From: Bacteroidota bacterium
Lineage (GTDB): Bacteria > Bacteroidota > Rhodothermia > Rhodothermales > Rubricoccaceae
Length of the DNA: 6,776 bases
Assembly (NCBI GenBank): GCA_022564455.1
Contig: JADFLK010000123.1
Location: 1 to 6,776, forward strand
Direction of reading: 5' to 3'
Shown: positions 4,808 to 6,751 of the stretch, piece by piece
How positions within the stretch are numbered: position 1 is the stretch's first letter
Layout of the letters: each line of letters opens with the position of its first letter
Notes under the pieces: model-generated
The model's input: only the letters and a program-made list of their open reading frames with translations
Databases searched by the model: none
Told to the model about the DNA's origin: nothing
Translations under genes and position numbers: made by a program

Positions 4808-5404
4808 ATGCGCATCCTTTTAATTGTTCTGCTGATCGTGCTCATTTCGTCAGCGTCGGCTTATGCACAGCTTCGCACCGATCTGCCGGGAGGCCCTGCC
4901 CCAGTGGTGTTAACCGACTCGCAGAGGCCGCTTACGCTTTCAGGGTTGTTCAATACGCAGACGCTGAGAATCGGCCATTCGTACGAGTTTTCGTATACCG
5001 GCTATGCCGGCGGCAGCCTTGGCCTCGGCATCTACACAACGAGCCTGCAATGGCAACCGAGCAGCAGACTGGCCGCGCGTGTGGATGTTGGCGTAGCGCA
5101 CTCGCCGTTTGGTTCGGCTGATGTCCAGCAGGCGCTCGGGTTCGACCAGAACACACCGGCGCGGGTTTTCCTCCGGAACGCGGAGATCGCGTACCGGCCC
5201 ACCGAGAACTCAGTCCTTCGTCTGCAAATCCAGCAGAACCCGATGGGCGCCTACGGGCGGAGCCCATACGGCTCCTACGCCTCGCCGTACGGTTACGGGG
5301 GTTACGGATATGGAGGCTACGGATATATGCCTGGTAGCTACGGAACGAGCCTCCACGCGCGCTATGGTTCCGACTCGGACGCACTTTTTTGGCGTGGTTA
5401 TTAA
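4808..5404 (+). CDS. Small exported, probably outer-membrane protein with Gly/Tyr-rich tail, unknown function
   Basis: The ATG at 4808 gives 198 residues starting with a clear Sec signal peptide: MRI, a hydrophobic core (3-15), SASAYA, with cleavage likely before Gln21. Residues about 40-142 alternate polar and hydrophobic residues with aromatic ends, such as YEFSYTGYAGGSLGLGIYT (59-77) and RLAARVDVGVAHSPFG (87-102), which suggests several amphipathic beta strands of an outer-membrane or surface beta structure. NAEIAYRPTENSVLRLQIQQ (124-143) continues this pattern. The tail (about 148-179) is Gly/Tyr/Ser-rich with a YGYGGYGYGGYGY core. It ends RGY, not the usual barrel phenylalanine. I do not recognise a named family; I have an impression, not a proof, of similar proteins next to LytR_C genes in Rhodothermales. 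An upstream ATG at 4676 would put the signal peptide at residue 45 and is rejected. A strong hairpin follows the stop by 28 bases, so it may be its own transcription unit. Confidence 0.75.
   Translation: MRILLIVLLIVLISSASAYAQLRTDLPGGPAPVVLTDSQRPLTLSGLFNTQTLRIGHSYEFSYTGYAGGSLGLGIYTTSLQWQPSSRLAARVDVGVAHSPFGSADVQQALGFDQNTPARVFLRNAEIAYRPTENSVLRLQIQQNPMGAYGRSPYGSYASPYGYGGYGYGGYGYMPGSYGTSLHARYGSDSDALFWRGY
5288..5326 (+). repeat. Gly/Tyr codon repeat inside the 4808 gene
   Basis: Thirteen codons encode YGYGGYGYGGYGY. At DNA level this is a degenerate repeat of about 15 bases with the unit GGnTACGGATATGGn. Such tracts vary in length by slippage, so strain-to-strain length differences are expected. 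In other proteins Gly/Tyr-rich tails are flexible, adhesive or self-associating; here that is only a suggestion. Confidence 0.6.
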
Positions 5405-5432
5405 TGTTCTGTCTTCGGACTTGAGCTATCGT

Positions 5433-5461
5433 GCGGCACGCCGGACCTTCCGGGGTGCCGC
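5433..5461 (+). terminator. Strong GC hairpin after the 4808 gene, probable terminator
   Basis: GCGGCAC (5433-5439) pairs with GTGCCGC (5455-5461). After one G/G mismatch, CCGGA (5441-5445) pairs with TCCGG (5449-5453), leaving a CCT loop. Twelve pairs in 29 bases is very stable. It begins 28 bases after the stop of the 4808 gene. The T-tract is poor (GTTTC a few bases downstream), so it may act as an intrinsic terminator of modest strength or as a 3'-end protecting hairpin. It lies just before the first palindromic element. Confidence 0.5.
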
Positions 5462-5472
5462 CGGCGTTTCAA

Positions 5473-5619
5473 CAGCCCGTTGAGAAAAAATCATCCTGCC
5501 TGCCCGCCATGCGGCGGGACTCTCAGCCGATCTTCGCGTTGCCCCGCAGTATTGTGGGGCTCCTCGATCTCGACCGAGATGCACTCGCTTCGGCGGCAGG
5601 GCACTTCTTCAACGGGCTG
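5473..5619. repeat. Palindromic MITE-like element 1
   Basis: A 12-base perfect inverted repeat (ACAGCCCGTTGA at 5472-5483, its complement at 5609-5620) encloses about 125 bases with further pairing. CCCGCC/GGCGGG (5503-5508 and 5513-5518), GCCCCGCA/TGTGGGGC with one G-T pair (5541-5548 and 5553-5560), and ATCTCG/CGAGAT (5567-5572 and 5575-5580) each form a local hairpin. The bases TCAA flank both ends (5469-5472 and 5620-5623), a possible 4-base target duplication; taking it as such sets the borders at 5473 and 5619. The core (5522-5556) matches element 2 at 30 of 35 bases, and landmarks CGATCTCG, CTCGCT, CGGCAG and TTCAAC follow in the same order in both. It encodes nothing convincing. Known small non-autonomous elements have this structure; membership of a mobile family is inferred from two copies only. 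Confidence 0.6.
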
Positions 5620-5645
5620 TCAAGGGCCAACCTGAATTACACTTT

Positions 5646-6098
5646 TTGAGTCGATCTCGCTTGAGCAACGCGTTGTTGAACGCGGCCATTGCAGCGGCCG
5701 CCGTGGTTCTGATTGTGCTTGTATATGGCCTGGCGACACGCGTCTTCGTTCCGCGAACGGACCCGATCCGCGAAGACAACCCCGGGCAACTTTTGGGCGA
5801 TCGCATTCAGGTGGAAGTCCGCAACGGCGTTGGGGAGTCCGGCCTTGCAAGCACAGCTACGCACTACCTCCGCAGCCGCGGTTTTGATGTGGTTGAGAAC
5901 GGGAATCATACGAGCTTCGGTATCGATTCGTCGTTCGTTGTGGACCGTGTGGGCAACCCACGGGCGGCACAGCGCGTAGCCTCTGCCCTTGGGCTCCCGT
6001 ACGAGCGCATCCGCGAAGACATCCGCCAGGACTACTACCTGGACGTTTCCGTCATCATTGGCAATGACTACCTCTCTCTTGAACCCTTTAGGCCTTAG
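5646..6098 (+). CDS. Single-pass membrane protein with LytR_C domain
   Basis: A 150-residue product with a short basic N-terminus, one transmembrane helix (about 10-31, rich in Ala/Val/Leu) and a LytR_C (CpsA/LytR C-terminal, PF13399-type) domain from about 54 to 142. The domain is recognised by the first strand IQVEVRNGVG (54-63), then GLASTATHYLRSRGFDVVE (66-84), FVVDRVGNPRAAQRVASALG (97-116) and the last strand VSVIIGND (134-141). In Gram-positives this domain follows the LytR-CpsA-Psr phosphotransferase; here there is no catalytic domain, as in many stand-alone Gram-negative members whose role is not known. The domain would face the periplasm. The start is unsure: the frame opens at 5484 and offers no ATG or GTG before the helix, only TTG at 5646 (used) or 5661. 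There is no Shine-Dalgarno site. Palindromic elements lie directly upstream and directly after its stop. It probably belongs to the rsfS operon. Confidence 0.8.
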   Translation: MSRSRLSNALLNAAIAAAAVVLIVLVYGLATRVFVPRTDPIREDNPGQLLGDRIQVEVRNGVGESGLASTATHYLRSRGFDVVENGNHTSFGIDSSFVVDRVGNPRAAQRVASALGLPYERIREDIRQDYYLDVSVIIGNDYLSLEPFRP

Positions 6099-6286
6099 GA
6101 AACTGTTGAAATACCTCATCCGGTCTGCGACGGCGCAACTCGGCCGATCTCTGCGTTGCCCCGAAGTACTGTGAGACATCCCGCAGCAATGCGGAGCGGG
6201 GCCGATTCAGTGATTCGACTGCGATCTCGCGCCTTGACCTCGCTCGAGTTGCGCTTGCCTCGGCAGAGTAGGTAATTCAACAGCCT
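6099..6286. repeat. Palindromic MITE-like element 2
   Basis: Imperfect palindrome of about 188 bases filling almost the whole gap between the LytR_C gene and rsfS. The ends CTGTTGAAATACC (6103-6115) and GGTAATTCAACAG (6271-6283) are inverted repeats at 12 of 13. Inside, GCGCAACTCG (6133-6142) pairs perfectly with CGAGTTGCGC (6245-6254), at matching distances from both ends. The centre holds CCGCA-GCAA-TGCGG (6181-6194), a hairpin with a GNRA-type loop. The sequence CTTAG flanks it on both sides (6094-6098 and 6287-6291), a possible 5-base target duplication whose left copy contains the stop codon of the LytR_C gene. Its core (6139-6173) is 30 of 35 identical to element 1, in the same orientation. 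As RNA it could fold into a long hairpin that separates or stabilises two parts of the operon message. No coding capacity is evident. Confidence 0.65.
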
Positions 6287-6298
6287 CTTAGCACACAC

Positions 6299-6751
6299 GT
6301 GAGCTCAAACCCTATGCCGGCAGTTTCCACGTCAACATCCGCACGCAAAAGGCGGTCCAGCCCCGTAGCTGGGCGCCATCTTGCACGCCTGGCCATTGAT
6401 GCTGCCCACGAGAAAAAAGCGATCGATGTGACGGTGATGGACCTGCGTGGTATTTCGGACGAGGTGGACTATTTCGTGATCTGCACGGGCGAGACCGATG
6501 TGCAGATTCGCGCCATTGTAGAGTCGGTGGTGGAGAAGCTGAAAGACGAAGCGGGTGAGCGGCCATCACACAGAGAAGGTATTCCGGGCTTTTCCCGCTG
6601 GATTTTGCTGGATTACTTTGATCTCGTGGTCCACGTGTTCAATCCAGAGCTTCGTTCGTACTACGACCTCGAACGGCTGTGGGGTGATGCGCCTACCGAG
6701 CGAGTAGCCGACGATGCAACGGAGATCTCAATTTTGTTAGAGGAAGTGTGA
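6299..6751 (+). CDS. rsfS: Ribosomal silencing factor RsfS
   Basis: RsfS (RsfA/YbeB/Iojap, DUF143, PF02410) binds ribosomal protein uL14 on the free 50S subunit and blocks joining to 30S, saving energy in starvation. The 150-residue product has an Arg/Ser-rich N-terminal extension (1-25) and the family domain from about 27 to 130. Motifs are all present: VMDLRGISDEVDYFVICTG (46-64), then VVEKLK (77-82), the Gly-Trp region GFSRWILLDYFDLVVHVF (97-114), and the uL14-contacting PELRSYYDLERLWGDA (116-131). The start is either GTG at 6299 or ATG at 6314 (residue 6); both leave the domain intact and neither has a clear Shine-Dalgarno site. The 200-base gap upstream is occupied by palindromic element 2, so translation is not coupled to the LytR_C gene. 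Its TGA overlaps the next ATG. Confidence 0.96.
   Translation: MSSNPMPAVSTSTSARKRRSSPVAGRHLARLAIDAAHEKKAIDVTVMDLRGISDEVDYFVICTGETDVQIRAIVESVVEKLKDEAGERPSHREGIPGFSRWILLDYFDLVVHVFNPELRSYYDLERLWGDAPTERVADDATEISILLEEV
6739..6746 (+). promoter_or_regulatory. Ribosome binding site of the gene after rsfS
   Basis: AGAGGAAG, inside the last codons of rsfS, lies four bases before the ATG at 6751. It is the only convincing Shine-Dalgarno-like sequence before any start in this window and supports 6751 as a real start. Confidence 0.5.

Follow-up and report, generated by a model that had tools for sequence, protein, structure and literature searches.

The two repeats that bracket the LytR_C-domain gene in the window (the window being the whole stretch of DNA analysed, 6,776 nucleotides in length) are read here, with a probability of roughly 0.87 as judged by sequence comparison, as copies of a MITE family that is most likely moved in trans by a transposase of the IS1182 family. 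The MITE family itself is confirmed and abundant, and an IS1182-type partner is probable. The elements are short and contain no transposase gene, they have terminal inverted repeats and duplicate their target, and their dispersed copies are accompanied by empty sites, the copy number being taken from the assembly 'Bacteroidetes bacterium isolate B7T1B5' (hereafter G001), the nearest relative reached. Furthermore, the length of the duplication, 4 bp, is that of ISPse1, a member of the IS1182 family.

Organization of the LytR_C locus

The genes identified by the Pfam search of the window include those for TsaD, GH25, LytR_C, and RsfS, together with one gene that has no Pfam match and may be called outer-membrane-like only by guess. 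The LytR_C-domain gene (5646..6098, + strand; PF13399, E 7.5e-15) is situated between the two elements, and the gene of the ribosomal silencing factor RsfS (6299..6751, + strand; PF02410, E 1.1e-29) follows the second one. Copy A (5473..5619, + strand, 147 bp) possesses inverted arms with the ends CAGCCCGTTGA/TTCAACGGGCTG; its central hairpin is swapped for a short CCCCGCAGTATTGTGGGG hairpin, and it is related to the G001 elements L002A, L001x, and A_L087. Copy B (6099..6287, + strand, 189 bp) has the ends GAAACTGTTGAA/TTCAACAGCCTC and a nested hairpin insert in the middle of the element; its identity is 67-72% to those copies in G001 whose match with it extends over most of the copy. In copy A, all 12 bases of the terminal inverted repeat agree; in copy B, the inner arms agree at 13 of 15.

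The initial annotation had described two related, non-coding repeats lying in direct orientation on either side of the LytR_C gene, and this description holds. The shared 35-base core (direct repeat D1, 86% identity; 5522..5556 in copy A and 6139..6173 in copy B, both on the + strand) is identical at 30 positions, and an ungapped match of 30/35 was reached in none of 500 shuffles of both gaps. Over the full copies, which bear the inverted arms and share one orientation, 99 of 134 aligned columns are identical, and none of the three mechanically called ORFs (60-180 aa) overlapping the two copies has a Pfam match. At this level of identity, the loss of the LytR_C gene through recombination between copies A and B, which had likewise been suggested, looks weak on sequence grounds.

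No Rfam match was obtained across the whole window at E up to 1, and a simple consensus scan of positions 5380-6330 found neither a Rho-independent terminator (a stem followed by a T run) nor a promoter. Shortly before copy A, at 5434-5460, there is a GC-rich inverted repeat, CGGCACGCCGGA/TCCGGGGTGCCG (11/12 by eye), which also occurs in G001 and G002; though absent from the list of the consensus scan, it is possibly the terminator of the preceding gene.

Empty sites in the nearest relatives

The search with the LytR_C protein returned matches in 95 of 99 genomes, of which G001 (95% identity) and G002 (83%) were the best. In a separate protein search, the first named species was Rhodocaloribacter litoris of the order Rhodothermales (64% identity over 79% of the query). 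At the DNA level, the LytR_C gene of the window is identical to that of G001 at 415/453 positions. When the loci were aligned, both gaps of the window turned out to be empty sites in the two nearest relatives reached, i.e., in L034 of G001 and L035 of G002, the flanks being uninterrupted against G001 and more diverged against G002.

For copy B, the empty site of L034 reads CCTTAGCACACACG and the filled site of the window CCTTAG-element-TTAGCACACACG; the left duplication TTAG (6095..6098) contains the LytR_C stop codon TAG (6096-6098), and the right one stands at 6288..6291, as taken from the sequence and from the comparison with the empty sites. For copy A, the window shows TCAA twice, on the left at 5469..5472 (from the sequence) and on the right at 5620..5623 (from the sequence together with the empty sites), whereas the empty site of G001 is TTAG, two bases of which differ, and the boundary of copy A is therefore less certain.

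The opposite arrangement was found in front of the preceding gene: there, G001 carries a type A copy (L087 7308-7474, seen in L034 as well) flanked by TTAG and CTAA, and the window and G002 have none; the same gap of G001 additionally holds a copy of a second family, F2 (L087 7106-7265). Presence and absence thus occur in both directions, which points to insertion and not to loss.

As to the spread of the element, a pattern scan for the core through genome contigs hit one assembly only, namely G001, at three loci, and the search with element B yielded 52 matching pieces in that genome. When element L027 was compared with 99 relatives, with at most the best eight candidates per genome scored, the matches listed came only from G001, apart from one in G002. 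Element A gave no match to plasmids, and the loose core pattern was found in no viral contig.

Copy number, target duplication, and placement in G001

The end motif GAGGCTGTTGAA, allowing at most one mismatch, has 537 matches in the 3.1 Mb of G001 vs 20 for the reversed control pattern, which suggests approximately 260 elements, a count that takes in the candidate partner L066 as well as same-ended elements with other interiors. The repeat family called small in the initial annotation is accordingly a large one. By contrast, its proposal of an active or recently active non-autonomous element is supported, and the three checks it had named all came out in this direction: the orthologous gaps in G001 and G002 are without copies, the family is multi-copy in the nearest relative, and a transposase candidate with the same ends, L066, is present in G001.

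Sixty stretches of G001, amounting to 945,769 sampled bases, contained 110 loci, a density biased upward because the stretches were chosen mostly for having matches. Both ends could be recognized at 90 of the 110 loci. An exact 4-bp duplication surrounds 40 of these two-ended copies, while permutation gave a mean of 8.4 and a maximum of 17 in 1000, and the base on the left equals its counterpart on the right in 67-75 of the 90 copies at the four duplication positions vs 27-50 at the eight other positions tested. The exact duplications comprise CTAG (13), TTAG (7), CTAA (5), CTAT (4), ATAA (3), TTAT (2), GTAA (2), and four singles.

Mechanically called ORFs of at least 100 aa cover 84% of the sampled contigs, and relative to them 49 of the two-ended copies show no overlap, 29 overlap partially, and 12 lie wholly inside, so that genes are for the most part spared. 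A targeting of stop codons was considered and rejected, the frequency among the elements (16/90) being no higher than the expectation set by the intergenic YTAR sites that were available (171/905). The length distribution of the copies has peaks at 158, 160, and 181 bp, and there are also short forms of roughly 72 bp; copies of 160 bp are up to 98.8% identical, and 10 of 325 pairs reach at least 98%. Four further elements (L088 16632-16845, L094 11182-11330, L079 9292-9461, and L090 14916-15091) have the same or nearly the same ends, GAGGCTGTTGAA, around interiors that are largely unrelated.

Candidate partner transposases

The search of G001 for PF01609 gave two hits, and only L066 has the ends of the element. 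Both ends of L066 (1,537 bp) are identical to the MITE ends over 15-16 bases and differ from the type A ends, and its flanks are unequal (CTAA and TTAT). The transposase of L066 lies in two frames as sequenced; its pieces carry DUF772 and DDE_Tnp_1, and their best NCBIfam model is IS1182, with a score below the cut-off (101 bits for the longer piece vs 270). At E up to 1e-30 it has at least 1,040 relatives in the protein collection, and none in the other 39 genomes searched. An origin of the MITE interior by deletion from L066, a route that applies to some MITEs only, was not seen in a blastn comparison with 47 elements, the 25 best listed matches all falling in the ends (15-22 bp).

In G046, a distant relative, the transposase of the insertion sequence L161 exceeds the IS1182 cut-off (359 bits vs 270), and this element has GAGTCCGTCGGACTT inverted-repeat ends, which resemble the F2 ends, and CTAG on both sides. 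We take these features as a link, within this clade, between the IS1182 family and both the ends and the duplication. L161, whose open frame (60-1475) encodes 471 aa, is located at the very start of its contig. Of the two PF01609 hits in G046, neither represents an IS whose ends are F3-like.

The IS5 group also duplicates a 4-bp YTAR target, and the target preference observed in G001 would fit a MITE moved by an IS5-family instead of an IS1182-family transposase; the L066 transposase, moreover, weakly matches IS5 models too (E 6.7e-08). We nevertheless regard this assignment as quite unlikely, given that the only one of the two PF01609 hits in G001 with the element's ends has IS1182 as its best model, and that L161, an IS1182-family member, combines F2-like ends with CTAG on both sides.

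Second family and distant relatives

Apart from the family of the window copies (F1), G001 harbors F2, a second MITE family of about 160 bp (L079, L083, L086, L089, and others; 25 pairs) with the ends GAGCCTGTCTGACTAAGG, YTAR-like flanks, and the same whole-length hairpin plan. The interior of F2 is unrelated or only very distantly related to that of F1, the best blastn E between the consensus sequences being 0.05. At L104 7177-7499 and L133 7811-8161, F1 copies are inserted into F2 copies.

For a wider search, the RNA model R1 was built from an alignment of 32 copies, consisting of 28 of 36 non-redundant copies plus four added ones (the two window copies, L069, and L087 7308-7474); the eight copies left out before model building included the same-ended but unrelated L079 9292-9461 and L090 14916-15091. 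With at most the best 49 candidates per genome scored, R1 had matches in at least five of the 60 relatives searched (E up to 0.001): G002 yielded a relic, G046 six copies, and G014 two weaker ones, each 155-161 bp in length. The single match in G031 (105 bp, 7e-4) was dropped by eye, as it showed no clear end repeats. One of the G014 matches, L142, has TTGA on both sides, and the other, L146, is without an exact duplication. In a sample of 296 genomes of the phylum (E up to 1e-4; no more than the best ten candidates scored in each), at least two matched, G001 and G046, both of which were already known.

One related element of G046 (L150 1501-1660) is located in the gap before LytR_C, immediately at the stop of the gene in front of it; its flanks form a direct repeat of 15 bp, CTGGACGCCCGCTGA, in place of 4 bp. 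The locus is syntenic with that of the window, including the TsaD, outer-membrane-like, LytR_C, and RsfS genes. In G046, the end motif of its other copies has 94 matches vs 9 for the control, so this is a further dispersed set and not a conserved feature of the operon.

A related element in the same gap of so distant a genome might indicate an ancient structure of the LytR_C-RsfS operon, serving regulation or RNA stability and doubled on purpose, as the initial annotation had offered for consideration, and such a structure would also accord with the folding of the two window copies, which is better than that of all 200 shuffles (z -5.6 and -3.4). However, this is contradicted by the empty state of both gaps in G001 and G002, the nearest relatives reached; many copies are present at other sites of G001, and the G046 copy stands at a different spot with ends resembling the dispersed set there. 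We therefore consider a purposeful operon structure extremely improbable.

Hairpin modules and folding

Within the MITE families, GC-rich perfect hairpins, e.g., CCCCGCAGTACTGCGGGG, are concentrated in the elements, with 87 in about 20 kb of element vs 106 in the remaining 925 kb (nested stems were counted twice, inside and outside elements alike). At least one such hairpin is present in 31 of 83 copies with F1 ends and in 4 of 25 F2 copies. The segment from CGTTGC to CTTGATCTC, found in 74 copies, measures 41 in 58 of them, 48 in 6, 20 in 5, and 64 in 2, with 42, 46, and 47 once each, and these discrete lengths are read as the exchange of whole hairpins; in the window, the hairpin segment has the short form in copy A and is nested in copy B. 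In the G001 sample (L078-L137), small GC-rich palindromes seem to serve as modules that MITE copies exchange with one another. One and the same module was observed in F1, in F2, and in a further repeat (L082 3625, L105 16148, L118 14868, and L135 18860).

F1 and F2 fold end to end, and a 160-bp G001 copy reaches z -7.1 and -9.3 on its two strands. This raises the thought that one strand of the MITE may also be read and selected as a structured RNA some 160 nt long (or, alternatively, as a hairpin of single-stranded DNA), which, on the modelled folds, we hold to be unlikely. The elements of G046 and G014, with lengths of 155-161 bp, self-pair to a degree similar to that of F1 and F2 (49-56 Watson-Crick pairs each), as such selection would have it, although the model that found them favors its own length and fold, and the window itself is without an Rfam match. 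The alignment of 32 copies retains changes on both sides in 14 of 33 consensus pairs, and double compensatory changes occupy 18 cells in the 160-bp subfamily (f160) and 33 in F2. Counted as distinct events, they number 7 in f160 and 13 in F2, but none in the 158-bp subfamily (f158); some of them fall within the ends or close by, a region in which the transposase by itself could enforce such changes, and template-switch repair of near-palindromes could yield the same compensatory changes.

With regard to the strand, the same one folds better in 78 of 83 G001 copies. In a test of 13 sequences, which leaves out the G046 copy L154 and whose cases are not independent because the sequences are related, mismatches on one strand are more often purine-purine than pyrimidine-pyrimidine in 12 of 13 (8 vs 8 in window copy B), and that strand also folds better in 13 of 13. 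In 10 of the 13 sequences, no more than 6 of 200 controls, in which unpaired or mismatched positions were flipped at random, showed as large a difference in folding; in both window copies and in L146 it is insignificant, with 43-55 of 200 controls reaching it. The strand-selection test of G-U vs A-C, based on distinct events, gave p 0.04 in f160 and a null result (1, 1) in f158 and F2, and no significant G-U excess was seen in the consensus sequences or in the window copies, which speaks against selection on one strand. Likewise, among copies flanked on either side by genes of at least 150 aa, F1 shows no consistent orientation to the genes (10 same vs 15 opposite), whereas F2 has 1 same vs 9 opposite (p 0.02, uncorrected).

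Proposed mechanism and comparison with known systems

According to the MITE reading, an element without a gene of its own would be recognized by its inverted-repeat ends of about 12-16 bp (GAGGCTGTTGAA in type B and CAGCCCGTTGAA in type A). We infer that an IS1182-family transposase acts in trans on these ends and inserts the element, with the duplication of a 4-bp target that is usually NTAN (CTAG, TTAG, CTAA). Copies would last where they do little harm, i.e., between genes; here, one copy occupies the gap that follows a gene, and the other sits precisely on the LytR_C stop codon, which the duplicated target preserves. The copies in the host operon would be passengers and not evolved regulators.

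The closest likeness is to the ISMac2-associated MITEs of Methanosarcina acetivorans, which comprise 14 copies of a 160-bp form and 7 copies of a 169-bp form with a putative IS1182-family partner, and with a direct repeat of 4 bp for the 160-bp form and 0 for the 169-bp form (PMC3852290). The elements described here share with them the non-coding nature, the length of about 160 bp, a putative partner of IS1182 type, and the 4-bp repeat; by description, not by sequence comparison, the archaeal MITEs differ in having fewer copies and inverted repeats of 25-26 bp (PMC3852290). In the same paper, the similarity between MITE and IS is generally limited to the inverted repeats (PMC3852290). ISPse1 of the IS1182 family, with 1653 bp, a 16/16 inverted repeat, and a 4-bp duplication (PMC3281130), resembles our elements in its duplication and in the length of its ends, and differs in having a transposase, which the window elements do not have.

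Two other MITEs are similar in placement or abundance. Chunjie of Geobacter uraniireducens, a MITE of 178-235 bp within an operon, has 38 copies with conserved ends and 57 partial ones (PMC10969869); it is likewise found in an operon, has fewer copies than estimated for G001, and is likened here by description, not by sequence or partner. MITECca01 of Cardinium is a high-copy, mostly intergenic MITE with 169 copies and the parental IS in the same genome, its partner being, in contrast, of the IS982 family (PMC9769881). IS1272, also of the IS1182 family, is inverted-repeat-replacing, in that it replaces its target and makes no duplication (PMC5678879). The replacement of a stem-loop by IS1272 resembles the hairpin swaps inside MITEs of the window type; unlike IS1272, however, our elements have a 4-bp duplication, and the swapped modules are without visible IS ends.

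No earlier description of this MITE family was found in the literature on IS1182, Rhodothermales, and Salinibacter MITEs, a search that covered mostly open-access papers. As far as that literature goes, the family is new, and the kind of MITE is already known, as exemplified by the 160-bp IS1182 MITEs in Methanosarcina. Less ordinary are the end-to-end hairpins, the excess of compensatory changes, the swapped GC-rich modules, the length of about 160 bp recurring in diverged families, and the one better-folding strand.

The MITE reading explains the repeats and removes the idea of a special regulatory structure at LytR_C. It also reveals a dense MITE load (for G001, the estimate is one element per 12 kb) in a Rhodothermales-related lineage that is uncultured. 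As G001 also contains a candidate partner, the transposition in trans by the IS1182 family becomes directly testable. It is conceivable, though in our view doubtful, that a structured nucleic acid some 160 nt long has the MITE as its dispersal form, one strand folding into a hairpin from end to end, whose fold and length recur in diverged families of related genomes while the ends change and whose apex hairpins are exchanged between copies and families; if this were true, the hairpin, and not only the ends, would be recognized by the transposition machinery or the host. More generally, the combination of a whole-length hairpin with the exchange of modules offers a concrete case for asking whether structure shapes the interiors of MITEs.
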